Part shown: one piece after another, positions 364 through 6,132 of the stretch
How positions within the stretch are numbered: position 1 is the stretch's first letter
How the letters are laid out: every line of letters starts with the position of its first letter
Source of the DNA: an uncultured Ruminococcus sp.
GTDB lineage: Bacteria; Bacillota_A; Clostridia; Oscillospirales; Acutalibacteraceae
Direction of reading: 5' to 3'
Length of the DNA: 6,134 nt
Assembly (NCBI GenBank): GCA_902798605.1
Contig: CADBXH010000103.1
Location: 1-6,134, forward strand
Notes under the pieces: generated by a model
What the model was told of the DNA's origin: nothing
The model's database searches: none
What the model saw: only the letters and a program-made list of their open reading frames with translations
Translations under genes and position numbers: made by a program

Positions 364-1293
364 TTAGGGTAAATATTTGCCCGAGGCAAGGTAGAGTCTG
401 TACCACTCGTTGTGCGTGAGCTCGACCTTTGACGCCTGACATATATCGCTGAGGTGGTTCGGGTTCATCGTACCCGCTATCGCCTGCATTTTTGCGGGGT
501 GTCGGAGTATCCAAGCAATTGCCACGGCGGTTTTTGGCACGCCGTACTTCTCCCCTATCTCCCACAAAACGCGGTTTAGCTCGGGGAATTCGGGGCTGTC
601 GACAAAGCAGCCCTTAAAAAATCCGTACTGCAACGGCGACCAAGCCTGGATCGTAACATCATTTAGGCGGCAATAGTCGAGCGTGCCGTTATCGCGGTCA
701 AGCGAGCGCTCAGTAGTGATATTGTTAACGTACAGCGCCTGATCGAGAAGCTGCGACTGCTCCAGCGAAAATTGAAGTTGGTTGAATACAAGCGGCTGAC
801 GGATGTGTTTTTTCAGCACCGCGAACATCATTGAAGGCACGTTGCTAACACCGAAATATTTTACCTTTCCGCTTTTTTCAAGCTCGTCGAACGCCTCGGC
901 GATCTGCTCCGGCTCATAGAGCAAGTCGGGTCTGTGCAGCAAGAGCGAATCGAGATATTCGCATTTTAATCTGCGCAGGCTGTCATCCACGCTGTTGATT
1001 ATATTCTCCTTTGTCCAGTTGAACTCGCCTTGGTCTGAAAGGATACCGCACTTGCTCTGTATAAAAACATCCTCGCGCTTTATCCCTGTTTTTGGGAACG
1101 CGTCGCCGAAGCGGGTCTCCGCCTCGCCGTTTTCACCGTAACAGGTGGCGTGGTCGTAATAATTGATACCTAAATCATAAGCGGTGCGGATGATATTCGC
1201 GGCGTCATCTACGGATAGCGCCGGCATCCGCATACAGCCCATAATTATTGATGACGCGTTTTGCGGTCCGTTTAAGACATTGATGTACTTCAT
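364..1293 (-). CDS. Aldo/keto reductase (YdhF-like oxidoreductase)
   Basis: This 309-residue protein is a full-length NAD(P)H-dependent aldo/keto reductase of TIM-barrel type, which reduces carbonyl groups in the cytoplasm; its natural substrate cannot be read from sequence. The catalytic tetrad is complete: D47 (in NYYDHA), Y52 (CYG), K81 (QSKCG) and H120 (LLLHRPD). Further family hallmarks are GKVKYFGVSN (142-151), the NQLQ strand (171-174), AWSPLQYG (217-224) and a C-terminal cofactor-binding region (AIAGTMNPNHLSDI, 271-284). The AWSPLQYG and NPNHLSDI wording resembles the E. coli YdhF group rather than the iron-sulfur aldo/keto reductases, and there is no ferredoxin-like cysteine cluster. 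The ATG at 1293 follows a TGAGGT ribosome binding site by about 6 nt. It lies 22 bp downstream of the VanY-type gene on the same strand, with no promoter evident between them, so the two are probably co-transcribed. No functional link to the carboxypeptidase is known to me. Confidence 0.93.
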   Translation of the reverse strand: MKYINVLNGPQNASSIIMGCMRMPALSVDDAANIIRTAYDLGINYYDHATCYGENGEAETRFGDAFPKTGIKREDVFIQSKCGILSDQGEFNWTKENIINSVDDSLRRLKCEYLDSLLLHRPDLLYEPEQIAEAFDELEKSGKVKYFGVSNVPSMMFAVLKKHIRQPLVFNQLQFSLEQSQLLDQALYVNNITTERSLDRDNGTLDYCRLNDVTIQAWSPLQYGFFKGCFVDSPEFPELNRVLWEIGEKYGVPKTAVAIAWILRHPAKMQAIAGTMNPNHLSDICQASKVELTHNEWYRLYLASGKYLP

Positions 1294-1315
1294 ATTTTAC
1301 CTCACTTAATAATTA

Positions 1316-2389
1316 TCAATACCCGTTATCGACTATCTCCCAGCCGCCTTTATCATTTTTTGACAGCAGCCATTTATAGTCCGTATAATCGTGATTAGGC
1401 TCGAACGCCTTATCCGCTGTGTTTTCCGGCGTGCGGAAATCCATCAGCAATTCAATAAACTCGGTGTAGTTTTGCTTGGGATATTTAGCTTTGGCTTTTG
1501 CGATCTCCTCATCGGAAGCGGCGTCATCGCCCGCGTAACGAATACTCTTCAGACAAAAACCGTCAAAGCCCGCGAACCGGCACTTTGCCTGTATCACAGC
1601 GTTTTTGAGATCATCCTCCGTATACTTTGCGGAACTGCCATAGTCAACGGTTATGTCTCCCGAGCTTGCGGCGCCAAGGTATTCCTCAAAGGTGATACCC
1701 TTTGACATAATTTTCCCGGCAACATCGGCGTTGTCTATATAGCGGATATGCCACGGCTCATAGGCGTAGCCGGTGATGTGCTCCTTGCCCTCAAGATAGC
1801 GGAGGATAAATCCGTAGCTGTCAAGCTTTTTGTGTATCTTCTCCCAAATCTCGGGATACTGCACCATATCCTCGTTCTCGGTGATATCCTTGCCGTCTAT
1901 GATAAGATAAAGGTCGAGCGCAAGTCCCGTGTGATGCTCCGAAAAGCCGGGCTTTGCCACCGTTTTAGCGGCATAATCGGCGCCGTATTGCTTGGTAAAA
2001 TCGTCCATAATACGCTGCTGCTCGGCTACGCTTCTGTAGGCGGAGTCAAGGTCTACATATACTCCCTCTTTCTCCAAATCAGCCTTGAGCTTTAGGTACG
2101 CGTCGTATGCCTTTGACTCAACTTCGACGTCATCCTTGATCGAGTTGGTCATATGGACGGTTTGAAGCTTTTGCTCCCAGCCGTCGGGAAGCGCGTGCGT
2201 TTTGTTTACGAGCGCCATATAATCTATACCGCCGGGCTTTGCCTCATCTACGCTCGCCTCATCGGCAGTAGCTTCATCGGCAGTCGCAGCGCTTGATTCC
2301 TTTTCGGTATTGTTGTTGCAGCCTGCGAGCACCGCTGTCGTGAGCAGACAAAAGCAGAGTATCAGGCTTAAAAATATACTTTTTTTCAT
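1316..2389 (-). CDS. VanY-type D-Ala-D-Ala carboxypeptidase lipoprotein
   Basis: A 357-residue zinc peptidase of the M15B/VanY family, expected to remove the terminal D-Ala from peptidoglycan pentapeptides outside the membrane. The ATG at 2389 is chosen because a perfect AAGGAGGT (2404-2397) precedes it by 7 nt; an in-frame ATG at 2422 has no such site. Residues 1-24 are a lipoprotein signal peptide ending in lipobox LAGC (C24 the lipidated cysteine). A low-complexity linker with DEA repeats (35-50) follows. The catalytic domain spans about 55-240: SAYRS (116-120), SEHHTGLALD (150-159) with zinc ligands H152 and D159, and EPWH (211-214) with catalytic E211 and zinc ligand H214. Residues 250-357 form an extra C-terminal domain rich in Tyr/Trp, ending GGWEIVDNGY, a pattern seen at the end of small Firmicutes lipoprotein domains. 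Without vanH/A/X or vanR/S nearby it is more likely a housekeeping wall enzyme than a vancomycin-resistance gene. Confidence 0.92.
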   Translation of the reverse strand: MKKSIFLSLILCFCLLTTAVLAGCNNNTEKESSAATADEATADEASVDEAKPGGIDYMALVNKTHALPDGWEQKLQTVHMTNSIKDDVEVESKAYDAYLKLKADLEKEGVYVDLDSAYRSVAEQQRIMDDFTKQYGADYAAKTVAKPGFSEHHTGLALDLYLIIDGKDITENEDMVQYPEIWEKIHKKLDSYGFILRYLEGKEHITGYAYEPWHIRYIDNADVAGKIMSKGITFEEYLGAASSGDITVDYGSSAKYTEDDLKNAVIQAKCRFAGFDGFCLKSIRYAGDDAASDEEIAKAKAKYPKQNYTEFIELLMDFRTPENTADKAFEPNHDYTDYKWLLSKNDKGGWEIVDNGY

Positions 2390-2396
2390 TATGTTT

Positions 2397-2404
2397 ACCT
2401 CCTT
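2397..2404 (-). promoter_or_regulatory. Ribosome binding site deciding the VanY-type start
   Basis: AAGGAGGT on the minus strand is fully complementary to the anti-Shine-Dalgarno core and lies 7 nt before the ATG at 2389. It falls inside the longer reading frame that would begin at 2422, which argues against that upstream start. Confidence 0.85.
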
Positions 2405-2430
2405 CGCACAACCGCGAATCAATATATTTT

Positions 2431-2459
2431 ATAATATCACATCATTCACTGTCTTTCAA
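2431..2459 (-). promoter_or_regulatory. Sigma-A-type promoter of the VanY/aldo-keto reductase operon
   Basis: TTGAAA (2459-2454) and TATTAT (2436-2431) are separated by 17 bp. Transcription would start near 2424, giving a leader of about 35 nt before the VanY-type ATG. It is back to back with the cls promoter, and 30 bp lie between the two -35 boxes, so a shared regulator is possible, although no clear operator palindrome is visible. Confidence 0.75.
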
Positions 2460-2489
2460 TATATACGGCAAGAATAATAACCATTTCCC

Positions 2490-2518
2490 TTGTCATAATC
2501 ATTCACTCGTGATATACT
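2490..2518 (+). promoter_or_regulatory. Sigma-A-type promoter of cls
   Basis: TTGTCA (2490-2495) and TATACT (2513-2518) are separated by exactly 17 bp. The start would fall near 2525, leaving a short leader of about 27 nt that contains the ribosome binding site. Confidence 0.8.
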
Positions 2519-2536
2519 GGATTTGCAACGGAAATG

Positions 2537-2543
2537 AAGGGAG
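2537..2543 (+). promoter_or_regulatory. Ribosome binding site deciding the cls start
   Basis: AAGGGAG lies 8 nt before the ATG at 2552. An in-frame ATG at 2534 would place this site inside the coding region and has no purine-rich site before it, so 2552 is preferred. Confidence 0.75.
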
Positions 2544-2551
2544 ATAATACT

Positions 2552-4114
2552 ATGAGTGACGTCTTCAGGCTTGCGCCGCCGAAAAAGAAAGGAATTATGA
2601 GTCTGGTTTTCAGCCGTTTTTCCATTATCGCCTTGCTGATACTTCTGCAAATAGCACTGTATGTTGTCATCTACGGCTGGCTGATCCATTTACTGCCGTT
2701 TTTCTCGGTGTTCTTGGTGATTTTTACATTGCTTATGGTCTTTTATCTGTTCAACAACAATATGGATTACAGCGCAAAGCTTACATGGATGCTTGTTATC
2801 GCCGTGCTGCAGGTACCGGGCGCTATATTTTTGCTGTTCACTCAGACGAATGTCGGGTACCGTAAGCTCTCGCAAAGAGAAAACGCGCTGATACATATGA
2901 CACGAAGGGCGATCGAACAGCCGAAGGACGCTGTTGCCGCTCTCGAAAACGACGATTCAGGCACAAAGGAGCTGGTTAAATACCTCAACCGCAGCGGTTG
3001 TTTTCCGGCGTATTGCAACACCGAGGTAACATATTTCCCAATCGGCGAGGATAAGTTTGAAGCTATGCTGAAGGAGCTTGCCAAAGCCGAAAAGTTCATC
3101 TTTATGGAGTACTTTATTTTGGAAGAGGGTTATATGTGGGGCAAGATCCTCGAGATACTCGTCGAGAAAGCAGCGCAGGGCGTAGAAGTCCGCGTTATGT
3201 ACGACGGTATGTGCGAGATGTCCACCATCCAGCCGGATTATTATAAGCTGCTGAGGGAAAAGGGTATAAAAGCAAAGGCTTTTTCTCCTATCCGCCCGTT
3301 ATTATCCTCCCACTACAACTACAGAGATCACCGCAAAATTCTCGTCATAGACGGCGAGGTCGCTTTTAACGGCGGAATAAACCTCGCAGACGAATACATC
3401 AACCGCGTTGAACGCTTCGGTCACTGGAAGGACACCGCGGTAATGCTGCACGGCGACGCCGCAAAGAGCTTTACGCTGATGTTTTTGCAGATGTGGAATA
3501 TCGACGAAAAAAACGCGGAATTCGAACAGTGGCTCACGCCTAACCAAACAACGCCCAAACACCCGAGCGGAATCGTTGTCCCGTACGGAGACAGTCCGCT
3601 GGACGGCAGAAAAGTCGGCGAGACCGTTTATATGGACATCATCAACCGCGCAAACGATTATGTTCATATTATGACGCCGTACCTGATACTCGACGGCGAG
3701 CTTGAAGCCGCGCTGAAATACGCCGCCGAGCGCGGGGTCGACGTAAAGATCATCCTCCCCGGAATACCCGATAAAAGCACGGCATACTCTCTTGCAAAAT
3801 CACATTACAGCCGTTTAATAGCCTCGGGGATAGAAATTTACGAGTACACCCCGGGATTCGTCCACGCAAAGGTTTTTGTCAGCGATCACTGCAAAGCCAC
3901 TGTCGGCACGATCAACCTCGACTACCGCAGCCTGTACCATCACTTTGAGTGCGCGACCTATATGTACAAAACTGATTGCATTCCGGACATAGACGCGGAC
4001 TTTGACGAAACACTGTCAAAATGCCGCAAGGTGACCCGCAAAACCATTAAGGACGAAAAGCTGTCGTACAAGATAATGGGAACTATACTAAAATTCATCG
4101 CGCCGCTTATGTAG
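2552..4114 (+). CDS. cls: Cardiolipin synthase (phospholipase D family)
   Basis: A 520-residue membrane enzyme that condenses two phosphatidylglycerol molecules into cardiolipin and glycerol. The N-terminus carries three hydrophobic segments (about 22-46, 48-67 and 78-97); the last two match the PLD-nuclease N-terminal region of bacterial Cls. Two phospholipase D domains follow, each with an intact HKD motif: H260-x-K262-x4-D267 (HRKILVID) followed by NGGINL, and H438-x-K440-x4-D445 (HAKVFVSD) followed by GTINLDYRS. Length and layout match full-size Firmicutes Cls, and no key residue is missing. The gene stands alone, reading away from the VanY-type operon from a shared promoter region, and converges on the dockerin gene with a hairpin between them. 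A related phosphatidyltransferase of the family cannot be excluded, but the combination of N-terminal membrane segments and motif context favours Cls. Confidence 0.94.
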   Translation: MSDVFRLAPPKKKGIMSLVFSRFSIIALLILLQIALYVVIYGWLIHLLPFFSVFLVIFTLLMVFYLFNNNMDYSAKLTWMLVIAVLQVPGAIFLLFTQTNVGYRKLSQRENALIHMTRRAIEQPKDAVAALENDDSGTKELVKYLNRSGCFPAYCNTEVTYFPIGEDKFEAMLKELAKAEKFIFMEYFILEEGYMWGKILEILVEKAAQGVEVRVMYDGMCEMSTIQPDYYKLLREKGIKAKAFSPIRPLLSSHYNYRDHRKILVIDGEVAFNGGINLADEYINRVERFGHWKDTAVMLHGDAAKSFTLMFLQMWNIDEKNAEFEQWLTPNQTTPKHPSGIVVPYGDSPLDGRKVGETVYMDIINRANDYVHIMTPYLILDGELEAALKYAAERGVDVKIILPGIPDKSTAYSLAKSHYSRLIASGIEIYEYTPGFVHAKVFVSDHCKATVGTINLDYRSLYHHFECATYMYKTDCIPDIDADFDETLSKCRKVTRKTIKDEKLSYKIMGTILKFIAPLM

Positions 4115-4140
4115 CGAAAAAAGTAAAAAACAAAAGAACA

Positions 4141-4180
4141 GAGGCTGACTTAAAACTCGAAAGTTTTTTAGGTCAACCTC
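4141..4180. terminator. Probable bidirectional terminator between cls and the dockerin gene
   Basis: A long imperfect hairpin begins GAGG and ends CCTC, with TGAC pairing with GTCA inside it (one C/A mismatch) and an A-rich/T-rich upper stem. On the plus strand it is followed by TTTGTTTG, and on the minus strand by TGTTCTTTTGTTTTTTAC, so it can serve both convergent genes. It starts 26 bp after the cls stop and ends 22 bp before the dockerin stop. Confidence 0.8.
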
Positions 4181-4202
4181 TTTGTTTGTCTAAATTTTGT
4201 TA

Positions 4203-5123
4203 TTATGATCTGTTGGGGAATTCGGTTATAATACCTGCCGCGTACTCTTGAATCAGGATCGCGTCAAGTGTATCCGCATTACCGTCGTTGTTTACATCTG
4301 CAATATGGATCTGCTCATCGGTGAGCTGAATCTTTTCACCTGCATACTTCTGAATCAATATCGCGTCAAGTATATCAACCGAGCCGTCATTATTTACGTC
4401 GCCTTTGATAACCGGTTCAACCGGCTCTGTAGTATCTGCGGGAGAAGTCGTCGCAACAACAGGATAGGTGGTTTCCGCGGGGAATGTTGTCACGTCCGCG
4501 GGGACTGTTGTCACTTCCTCAGGCTCAGTCGCGTCCATATCCTTGATGATCACCTCATAACCGTTCGCGGTTTTTACTGTGAGCTCATCGACCGAAAAAT
4601 ACACAACGGTATTGACGCCGGTAAGTTCTCCGTAAGTGCAATATTCCACATCGATTTCTATATCCGCGGTCAACAAAGGATCGCCTTTTTTCACCGTCAC
4701 GGGTGAAGCGCCGGCAAAGCTGCCCTTCAGCATCCAAATATCATCTTCCGCTGTTTTGCAGTCCATTGCGGTGAATGGCGTATAGCTGTTCAGGGTAACG
4801 CCTTCTTCCTCGTGATAAAGCGTGAATTTAAAGCTTACTATATCCAGATCCTCGGGCGCGGTAAAGTTAAGCGTGTGACTACCGTATGTGTTTCCCGTAA
4901 AGACTTCATTATCCTTGCAGTAATTTGAATCCTGCCGGATATTGTAATTTGCCCAGTCCTCACAATGATTGGTAGAATCCTCATAGTCGTCCTCGCCCGA
5001 ATAGGTAAAGCCGATCGCTTCTTCATCAGTGACGCTCGCCGTTACGCTTTGAGAACACACAGCCGCAACAGTGACTGTCATAATCACTGCCATCAAAGCA
5101 GCTAAAAGCTTGATTTTAATCAT
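4203..5123 (-). CDS. Secreted protein with C-terminal type I dockerin
   Basis: A 306-residue exported protein. Residues 1-29 are a Sec signal peptide with a hydrophobic core and probable cleavage after VTA (A29); C23 is not in a proper lipobox, so it is not called a lipoprotein. Residues 30-198 form an unrecognised beta-rich domain with several cysteines (C54, C69, C122, C162). A Thr/Pro/Val-rich linker with TTxP-like repeats (about 199-238) follows. Residues 240-300 are a dockerin with two calcium-binding loops, DVNNDGSVDILD (242-253) and DVNNDGNADTLD (276-287), each followed by an AILIQ-(K/E)-Y-A helix. Type I dockerins bind cohesins and attach proteins to scaffolds, so this may be a cellulosome-like or surface-assembly component. 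The near-identical repeats give the two-fold symmetry that permits dual binding modes in known dockerins. No catalytic domain is recognised. The ATG at 5123 follows GGAGGG by 6 nt. Confidence 0.9.
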   Translation of the reverse strand: MIKIKLLAALMAVIMTVTVAAVCSQSVTASVTDEEAIGFTYSGEDDYEDSTNHCEDWANYNIRQDSNYCKDNEVFTGNTYGSHTLNFTAPEDLDIVSFKFTLYHEEEGVTLNSYTPFTAMDCKTAEDDIWMLKGSFAGASPVTVKKGDPLLTADIEIDVEYCTYGELTGVNTVVYFSVDELTVKTANGYEVIIKDMDATEPEEVTTVPADVTTFPAETTYPVVATTSPADTTEPVEPVIKGDVNNDGSVDILDAILIQKYAGEKIQLTDEQIHIADVNNDGNADTLDAILIQEYAAGIITEFPNRS

Positions 5124-5220
5124 AGATAACCCTCCAAAGAATTAATTTATCCGAGCCTTTAAGAGCGCGCAAAAATGTTCATTTATCATTATTTTGCGAA
5201 CACGCCAAGACTATGTATTT

Positions 5221-5249
5221 ATAATAACATAGTATGAATTTTAAGTCAA
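5221..5249 (-). promoter_or_regulatory. Strong promoter of the dockerin gene
   Basis: TTGACT (5249-5244) and TATTAT (5226-5221) are separated by 17 bp, the best promoter match in the window. The predicted start near 5214 gives a leader of about 90 nt. That leader can form a 7-bp hairpin (CGCAAAA with TTTTGCG) about 20 nt into the transcript. It does not match a riboswitch I recognise. No hairpin followed by a T-run precedes the gene, so constitutive or trans-regulated expression is likely. Confidence 0.8.
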
Positions 5250-5306
5250 CTTTTTTTGTGAGTTGTTGATTTGCTTTTGTGATATTTATCACGCAAGTAG
5301 CTTGTG

Positions 5307-5459
5307 GTGGAGATGACGTGTGTTCGTGTAATGCGAAAACTTCCTGCTCGTTTGTTGCGGCGTGTGTTGTGTGCAAACGCGGTGGGGCTCGGCGCCCTAA
5401 AAACATCGCACTGCGATGTTTTCTTAACGGGCTGTTCGATTCCCGTCATCTCTTTCACC
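5307..5459. repeat. Composite repeat, copy 1 (ends resemble the tmRNA 3' end)
   Basis: Made of an A block (5307-5364) and the core of a B block (5396-5477), separated by 31 unique bases. The A block matches 5506-5563 at 56 of 58 positions. The B block matches 5687-5768 with about three differences. The outer ends are imperfect inverted repeats: GTGGAGATGACG on the left, and CGTCATCTC-TTT-CACC on the right. Both resemble the mature tmRNA 3' end (CGTCATCTCCACCA). The B block also contains ACGGG-CTG-TTCGATT-CCCGT, the tmRNA T-arm sequence with three extra bases in its loop. No transposase or credible coding frame is present. It could be a miniature mobile element or the remains of integration next to ssrA. 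Confidence 0.8.
5400..5422. other. Perfect hairpin inside repeat copy 1
   Basis: Two perfect 11-base arms (AAAACATCGCA and TGCGATGTTTT) flank a single base. On the plus strand it is followed by CTTAA, and on the minus strand by a short T-run ending in AGG, so it could act as a weak terminator in either direction. Its identical twin is at 5691-5713. Confidence 0.8.
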
Positions 5460-5505
5460 AAAAAAAATATGATGCCCTGAGGCTAGGTTCTGCGTTTGGA
5501 TTTCA

Positions 5506-5751
5506 GTGGAGATGACGTGTGTTCGTATAATGCGAAAACTTCCTGCTCGCTTGTTGCGGCGTGACCGCGTGCCGCAGCTGTCAGCGCGCCTTTGGAAAGA
5601 ACGGATTAACAGGCAAGTCGGATCAACGGCGCATTTGAACGCGGTCGTAACGGTAAAGTTTCTTTCTGATGAAGATTGCATTTCTACCTAAAAACATCGC
5701 ACTGCGATGTTTTCTTAACGGGCTGTTCGATTCCCGTCATCTCTTTTCACC
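5506..5751. repeat. Composite repeat, copy 2 (adjacent to the ssrA terminator)
   Basis: The same A and B blocks as the copy at 5307-5459 (A 5506-5563, B core 5687-5751), but with 123 unique bases between them instead of 31, so the conserved parts are the ends. Its B block runs on through the A-run into the ssrA terminator stem (TGACGCCC at 5761-5768). Copy 1 runs into a decayed version of that stem (TGATGCCCTGAGGC). The interior holds no recognisable gene; short reading frames here are products of the repeat sequence. Confidence 0.8.
5691..5713. other. Perfect hairpin inside repeat copy 2
   Basis: The sequence is identical to the 23-base palindrome at 5400-5422. Lying on the minus-strand exit path from ssrA, it may serve as a backup stop between ssrA and the dockerin gene; this is inferred from the structure only. 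Confidence 0.75.
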
Positions 5752-5814
5752 AAAAAAATATGACGCCCGAAGGCGTCAATTTTTTTTGGTGGAGATGACG
5801 GGAATCGAACCCGT
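5718..5814. repeat. Large imperfect palindrome centred on the ssrA terminator
   Basis: The left arm 5718-5767 and right arm 5772-5814 are inverted copies. Both carry the tmRNA T-arm and acceptor sequence (ACGGG, TTCGATTCCCGTCATCTC, CACC), an A-run and TGACGCC. The left arm differs by a CTG insertion after ACGGG, a TTTT insertion before CACC, and small changes beside the A-run. The loop is CGAA (5768-5771). The ssrA gene therefore ends in a mirror image of its own 3' terminus. Confidence 0.9.
5751..5778 (-). terminator. Intrinsic terminator of ssrA
   Basis: On the minus strand a 7-bp GC-rich stem (TGACGCC with GGCGTCA) closes a TTCG tetraloop at 5771-5768 and is followed by TATTTTTTT (5760-5752). 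It begins 9 nt after the CCA end of tmRNA, leaving a short trailer for exonucleolytic maturation. Confidence 0.93.
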
Positions 5815-6132
5815 GTCCGAAAAGAATTCGCCGGGATTTTCTCCGAGCGCAGTCGTTATTTTAGGTCTCCCCCGCCGTACCGCCTAACGACAGGCTATAC
5901 GGGTCGGCAGCTCCTGATGTGTGACGGGGAGCGGAGCAGGTCCCTGTTCACATTTACCTCTGATCGACGCCCCTTACGCGGCCGAGGTACTCCGCGCAGG
6001 GACGGGCTGCATCAAGCAGCCATTCTAACTGTATTTTTGTCAGTTATTTTTAAGTTTACGGATTTTATGGCGGTTCCGCACCGCCGCTCGCTTATCCGGG
6101 GTCGTTCTCCCCGTCGAAACCTTTACATCCCC
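5787..6132 (-). ncRNA. ssrA: Transfer-messenger RNA (tmRNA), complete
   Basis: tmRNA rescues stalled ribosomes with SmpB and adds a degradation tag to the unfinished protein. The gene is 346 nt and one-piece. The 5' end GGGGATG (6132-6126) pairs with CATCTCC (5797-5791) to form the acceptor stem with the G3-U70 pair recognised by alanyl-tRNA synthetase. The 3' end is encoded CCA preceded by discriminator A (5790). The 5' body GGGGATGTAAAGGTTTCGAC is the typical tmRNA start. The T-arm is ACGGG-TTCGATT-CCCGT. Pseudoknot 1 is visible at 6085-6059: GGCGGT pairs with ACCGCC, and CGGA in its loop pairs with TCCG. The tag reading frame follows, and further pseudoknot-rich sequence fills the centre. 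Its promoter lies beyond the right edge, with only two bases left. Confidence 0.97.
6012..6041 (-). other. tmRNA tag reading frame
   Basis: After AAAATAACT, the usual context just before a resume codon, the frame reads GAC AAA AAT ACA GTT AGA ATG GCT GCT TGA, giving DKNTVRMAA. With the alanine carried by tmRNA the predicted tag is ADKNTVRMAA. The stop codon lies in the loop of a GGCTGC/GCAGCC hairpin (6021-6005), as is common in tmRNA. The resume position is inferred from the context; the C-terminal residues are secure from the frame and stop. Confidence 0.85.

Follow-up and report, generated by a model that had tools for sequence, protein, structure and literature searches.

Short modules behind tmRNA and tRNA genes of Ruminococcus carry ends that match the adjacent gene

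Two short repeated modules adjoin the 3' end of ssrA in a 6,134-nt stretch of Ruminococcus DNA, which was analysed as a whole and is called the window here. They are members of a family of short non-coding elements that lie right behind tRNA and tmRNA genes, with ends that match that neighbour. We consider it somewhat probable that the family represents a non-autonomous mobile element that targets the 3' ends of tRNA and tmRNA genes and in which the match of the inner arm to the tRNA is maintained.

Two tandem modules behind ssrA

The tmRNA gene occupies positions 5787-6132 on the minus strand (ARAGORN; RF00023, 166.5 bits). Both modules are on the plus strand, in tandem and convergent with ssrA. 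Nucleotides of tRNAs and tmRNAs are numbered by counting back from A76 of the CCA. Module 1 begins with an A arm at 5305-5318, the complement of tmRNA nt 76-63 (TGGTGGAGATGACG). This arm is identical in 14/14 positions to 5787-5800, a third copy of the 14-nt motif within the ssrA 3' end, of which it is the distal direct copy. The body of module 1 (5319-5434), of standard length according to its match to the family model and the body alignment, contains a conserved hairpin at 5400-5422 (AAAACATCGCA/C/TGCGATGTTTT) that is supported by covariation over 125 distinct modules. It is followed by the B arm (5435-5460), which repeat comparison and the family profile identify as a tmRNA copy starting at T54 of the T-loop (TTCGATTCCCGTCATCTC..CACCA) and inverted relative to ssrA. 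A decayed copy of the terminator hairpin lies between the two modules at 5461-5483 and shares direct repeat D1 with 5753-5774. In module 2, the A arm (5504-5517) agrees with the tmRNA 3' end in 12/14 positions, the body (5518-5725) has a longer, unrelated interior (about 5564-5686) and a hairpin (5691-5713) identical to that at 5400-5422, and the B arm (5726-5752), again the tmRNA 3' part inverted, likewise begins at T54. Module 2 is separated from ssrA by a bidirectional terminator-like hairpin at 5753-5786 (inverted repeat I4), within which 5761-5778 is terminator-like on both strands, in a scan that found 2 such sites in total against 1.6 expected in shuffles. A covariance model, R1, built from 11 modules of which module 1 is one, matches module 1 at 5305-5452 (148 nt, 107 bits, E 3.1e-26) and module 2 at 5504-5743 (240 nt, 79.8 bits, E 5.3e-19).

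An initial annotation of this DNA had described two composite repeats made of A and B blocks, and the blocks are present. The A blocks (5307-5364 and 5506-5563, 58 nt) are 97% identical (56/58), and the B blocks lie within an 88-nt direct repeat (5396-5483 and 5687-5774) that is 92% identical ungapped, with a one-base length shift adding differences. The recurrence of the leading motif was borne out as well, TTGTGGTGGAGATGACG being found again at 5302, 5501 (82%) and 5784 (94%). So was the opposite orientation of the B blocks relative to the tmRNA 3' end (5725-5743 versus 5792-5810, 19 nt, 100%), and the inverted copy is indeed incompatible with an attL/attR pair. Most of both blocks, however, is the element's own body, the tmRNA making up the lesser share. 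The two interiors are unrelated, as had been claimed, but the picture of conserved ends around variable interiors holds only in that they differ: the change is mostly local to module 2, while module 1 has the standard length.

Elsewhere in the window, a T-box leader is found at 42-257 on the minus strand (117 bits), its downstream gene falling outside the window. The frames at 364-5123 resemble an aldo/keto reductase, a D,D-carboxypeptidase, a cardiolipin synthase and a dockerin protein. When the window and five loci were compared with Rfam 15, only tmRNA, T-box and tRNA reached the gathering cut-off, other weak matches being far below it.

A family with arms fitted to the neighbouring gene

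Using the neighbouring gene, which we take to be cardiolipin-synthase-like, the nearest relative was found to be a goat-ileum Ruminococcus MAG (L001; 81% protein identity). Its ssrA is at the same place and is accompanied by two modules, whose arms match the relative's own, different tmRNA. R1 matches all of 26 chosen genomes, with 1-41 matches each (E<=0.01). In an even draw from the genus of the nearest relative it matches 39/40 genomes (E<=1e-6), with 1-35 matches per positive genome; seven of these 40 had supplied sequences to R1. Most of the related genomes are split into many contigs, and several are titled as MAGs; the copy numbers come from these relatives. Outside the genus, under stricter filters, matches were obtained in three of 40 further genomes of the family and two of 196 further genomes of the order. 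In four loci (L265, L258, L261, L263) the gap from a tmRNA or tRNA gene to the module is 44-48 nt, and it is larger in L266 (207 nt) and L260 (320 nt); no tmRNA or tRNA gene was found in front of the module in L264, L257 and L262. Strict search terms in the open-licence literature returned no paper or name for this element family.

R1 gave 108 hits in 63 sources, 95 of which were kept after removal of two from the window, three from the nearest relative, two truncated at contig ends and six that were short or weak. Among the 95, 35 lie behind a tRNA called by ARAGORN, 30 behind another module, 9 behind the 3' part of an uncalled tRNA and 5 at a contig end; for the remaining 16, no neighbour in front was recognised. 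Modules are thus often in tandem. The tRNA-adjacent modules are convergent with tRNA genes for 12 amino acids, at gaps of 28-92 nt, and in one locus (L081) the same body stands behind tRNA-Pro and tRNA-Val with arms matching each. The initial annotation had looked to further copies in relatives as a sign of mobility. Many copies with the same body do exist, but they are not restricted to ssrA and their arms differ by tRNA.

Each of the two arms agrees more closely with the adjacent tRNA than with other tRNAs. In the 35 tRNA-adjacent modules found with R1, the A arm matches its own tRNA in 9.63/10 positions and other tRNAs in 5.63/10, and the B arm scores 7.91/10 versus 4.66/10. The sum of A and B own-matches, 17.5, was reached in 0/20000 permutations (maximum 12.3). 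Single failures were seen in the A arm of L250 (5/10) and the B arms of L202 (1/10), L203 and L215 (both 0/10); in the last two, no T-loop motif was found within the searched stretch. Since R1 includes the arms, the test was repeated with a body-only model, R2, in 10 genomes that had given R2 no sequence. There were 83 matches; the loci of 30 of these gave 42 hits, 34 being kept after removal of four duplicates and four fragments. Twenty-one of these lie behind a tRNA or tmRNA, five in tandem, three at contig ends and five elsewhere; of the last group, two show a tRNA 3' end, two the end of another module and one neither. Again, own tRNAs scored higher than others (A, 9.19 versus 5.80; B, 7.90 versus 5.17, of 10), and the sum of 17.1 was reached in 0/20000 permutations (maximum 13.7). 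Here the single failures were the A arms of L321 and L326 (5/10) and the B arm of L305 (0/10).

The limits of the arms were placed with a boundary profile of 56 modules (35 and 20 from these sets and the second module of the window), the B arm being measured on 55. Along the strand opposite to that of the tRNA, a typical module opens with the complement of nt 76-63, and its end copies nt 54 to about nt 70. The edge of the A arm is sharp, with an own-match of 0.89 at nt 63 versus 0.14 at nt 62. In the B arm the own-match is at least 0.87 over nt 54-64, declines over nt 65-70 and is at background from nt 71. Local alignment placed the start of the direct repeat at nt 63 in 26/36 cases and at nt 61-65 in seven more; in the other three (L250, L231 and the window) it chose another stretch. 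In 10 loci the direct repeat continues through the terminator, and in eight of these it reaches the inverted arm, because a further or truncated module follows; later rearrangement therefore blurs the original junction there. The sequence of the 14-nt repeat differs with each tRNA while the boundary at nt 63 stays constant.

At ssrA itself the modules are patchy. A tmRNA scored above cut-off in 87/100 genomes of the genus of L001, and the 87 ssrA loci compared comprise 85 (30 loci and 55 regions) together with L001 and the window; among the 87 tmRNA genomes, G001 (the same as L001) and G091 are outside the 85. An inverted T-arm/acceptor copy, starting about 42-64 nt behind the CCA, is present in 16/87 loci, singly or, at several of them, in tandem. 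At least two more ssrA loci, L132 and L152, came to light through their direct copy and were subsequently found with the model as well. The count of module-bearing ssrA loci is a lower bound, since many of the contigs end soon after ssrA. These figures do not describe a conserved single-copy part of ssrA loci, the pattern that the initial annotation had held to contradict it.

Filled sites, uninterrupted sites and the common body

A query in which tRNA-Pro(TGG) and tRNA-Val of L081 were joined matched 46/100 genomes, mostly at one tRNA only. The junction is uninterrupted in four genomes (G094, G047, G056 and G065); one further continuous match (G076, 78%) is outside the four sites read as uninterrupted. 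In five others it is interrupted by 184-209 nt, after which nt 63-76 recur; this second copy agrees in 14/14 positions in G002, G073 and G010 and in 13/14 in G078 and G074. In G017, a hairpin alone separates tRNA-Pro from tRNA-Val. Lying directly after the CCA, the tRNA-Pro insert comprises a terminator-like hairpin, nt 54-~70 copied in inverted orientation, and the conserved body. The filled sites form two subfamilies, with 89-97% identity among G002, G073 and G010, 74% between G078 and G074 and 68-69% between the groups. At nt 59, the B arm follows the base of its own tRNA in G078 and G074, whereas behind tRNA-Pro of G002, G073 and G010 it has T against G59 of the tRNA. Insertion is the simplest reading of the filled and uninterrupted sites, although the latter could be precise deletions across the 14-bp repeats.

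The hairpin of the body covaries strongly. Its pair cells in the 125 distinct modules comprise 1104 Watson-Crick pairs, 3 G-U, 5 A-C and 7 others, and this near-absence of wobble pairs is expected for selection on DNA. We also considered, and discarded, the idea that the A and B arms pair within the molecule to imitate a tRNA acceptor stem. Folding predicts this pairing in both window modules, but across the family the A/B columns are paired in no more than 44-68% of copies, and the match of B usually stops near nt 70. Since tRNA identity is enough to make the A and B columns covary, that covariation was not counted in favour of pairing. In several modules a spacer separates hairpin and B arm on one side only, which is why fold-back copying at the terminator hairpin is no more than a possible sole origin of B.

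Body and arms have different affinities. The body is closer to same-genome modules at other tRNAs in 39/46 testable modules. Its mean best likeness is 0.75 in the same genome at different tRNAs and 0.65 in other genomes at the same tRNA, but it is also 0.75 at other tRNAs in other genomes, so that the large choice of partners contributes. In G012, for example, the tRNA-Leu module agrees with the tRNA-Pro module over 88% of the body and 50% of the A arm. The arms stay local, while the body is either transferred from one tRNA to another or subject to conversion among loci; the grouping of bodies by genome could reflect gene conversion instead of movement.

Possible origins and comparison with known systems

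The initial annotation had suggested a mobile or recombining element that uses the ssrA 3' end. An element of this kind has the best support, but it is not bound to ssrA: the same family stands behind many tRNA genes with matching arms. It is unlikely that each module encodes instead a structured antisense RNA for its tRNA, with a 5' end complementary to the tRNA 3' end and a 3' end mimicking the T-loop, that could bind or mimic the tRNA and control it. Such an RNA would account for arms that fit the adjacent tRNA, for a conserved and covarying hairpin and for the bidirectional terminator-like hairpin common to module 2 and ssrA, and module 1 does fold better than all of 200 shuffles (z -4.0). 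The fold of module 2, however, is not significant (z -1.65, 12/200 shuffles being as good), and several arrays (such as L217) have a terminator directly before the A arm, which leaves no room for a promoter. The antisense explanation is weakened by a consensus scan that found no module-strand promoter-like site in 5180-5830, by hairpin changes that avoid G-U almost entirely, and by a patchy presence in which uninterrupted sites exist.

The arrays of units bounded by direct copies of tRNA 3' ends could also recall scars of larger tyrosine-integrase tRNA islands, or integron-like cassettes in which the folded arms correspond to attC and the tRNA 3' end to attI. In addition, the tRNA 3' fragments beside some modules, cut at the T-loop or further upstream, resemble island junctions. 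We nevertheless regard this origin as improbable. A core of fixed sequence cannot serve many different tRNAs without spoiling them, and what is constant here is the nt 63 boundary, not its sequence. Moreover, the inserts at split sites are too short for a recombinase gene, and neither phage and plasmid searches with the window stretch nor a viral-contig search with two patterns gave a match. Quite unlikely, in our view, are old local duplications without any mobility, passed on together with each tRNA, made uniform between loci by gene conversion and removed by deletion. Flanking repeats of 14 bp and longer would ease such deletion, and the orthologous tRNA-Pro modules of G002, G073 and G010 are close to one another; but two distinct subfamilies and uninterrupted relatives occur at one site, copy number is very uneven (0-35 over 40 genomes of one genus), and duplication alone cannot create the first module at a new tRNA.

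For the mobile element that we favour, a duplication of constant 14 bp but changing sequence, measured from the T-loop motif, suggests a fixed-stagger integrase and not a sequence-matched recombinase. The universal T-loop motif TTCRANTCC (nt 54-62) would position this integrase, whose stagger of 14 bp would produce the duplication and thereby keep the tRNA intact. The inverted arm may begin as a T-loop mimic inside the element. Together with the hairpin and the tRNA end it would form a large imperfect palindrome, in which template switching during replication might keep correcting the inverted arm to the adjacent tRNA; recombination between the repeats could then yield tandem arrays. We suggest tentatively, and with some doubt, that the element enters nearly any tRNA or tmRNA gene through the universal T-loop and rewrites its own arm for each target, giving one body and many tRNA-specific versions per genome. 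Template-switch correction of imperfect palindromes is a known class of mutation (PMC3820800).

A search for cas1 and reverse transcriptase in 18 genomes, some of which may be incomplete, tied no transposase or integrase to the family. Here, high-copy genomes are those with >=11 hits, counted at E<=0.01 for the chosen genomes or E<=1e-6 for the even draw. Cas1 (PF01867) was found in 6/18 genomes (2/11 high-copy versus 4/7 low-copy) and RVT_1 in 8/18 (5/11 versus 3/7). On these counts, neither is supported as a partner. Nor is a retroelement using a tRNA primer supported, reverse transcriptase being missing from several high-copy carriers (RVT_1 was absent in G012, G035, G022, G010, G040 and G072, each with 11 or more hits). 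A non-exhaustive search found no autonomous partner element.

Among known systems, MITEs are short, multi-copy, non-autonomous elements with a target duplication. The modules resemble them in being too small for a transposase gene (184-209 nt inserts), in their copy number (as many as 41 hits in one genome at E<=0.01), in having a target duplication with an empty-site counterpart (four empty and five filled sites read) and in their covarying inverted-repeat structure. Unlike those of MITEs, their arms match the target tRNA, and the modules sit at tRNA and tmRNA 3' ends; comparison of the ends by eye showed no terminal inverted repeat besides the tRNA-derived arms. Islands and phages that integrate into tRNA or tmRNA genes carry genes and have one fixed core per tRNA. 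Those with tyrosine integrases share the target and a duplicated 3' part that keeps the tRNA intact, but here one body type stands behind many tRNAs, an inverted arm is present and there is no fixed core identical to one attB. Integron arrays likewise string together units that have direct repeats at their borders and imperfect inverted-repeat sites of about 150 nt; the present inserts are too short for cassette genes and their ends are tRNA-specific. The casposase, according to PMC6977970, prefers the 3' ends of tRNA genes and produces target duplications of 14-15 bp, and the 14-bp duplication at the tRNA 3' end (nt 63-76) is similar. However, casposons are transposons with terminal inverted repeats and genes of their own, cas1 was not found in 9/11 genomes with >=11 hits, and the 14-bp duplication in M. 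mazei includes only the last 4 bp of tRNA-Leu in the case shown in the same paper (PMC6977970), whereas here all 14 bp are tRNA.

If the proposed mechanism is true, a shared motif and a 3'-end duplication allow one small element to shelter safely at most kinds of tRNA gene, and its inner arm, matched to each target, would amount to an experiment repeated by nature on inverted-repeat correction beside highly transcribed genes. The element may help to explain assembly breaks at tRNA genes in the genus, and it is a marker for the dynamics of tRNA loci.

Some loci also show features of their own next to the modules. In L255 and L256, the uncalled tRNA in front of the module is cut at the T-loop, and in six others (L210, L200, L225, L232, L235 and L208) the T-arm is intact in the tRNA 3' part that ARAGORN did not call. 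The modules behind such uncalled 3' parts have the appearance of junctions at which larger islands split a tRNA that already bore a module. At 24/87 ssrA loci (L083, L093, L110, L134, L154 and others), a conserved coding-like stretch (TATTGGATGAACACCTAC... or variant forms) follows directly after the CCA, possibly the end of an integrated element; in L133 the stretch is found after the distal A copy as well. L118 has a second B-like end, about 2.6 kb behind ssrA and just past a stretch whose reading frame we take to resemble the C-terminus of a serine recombinase.
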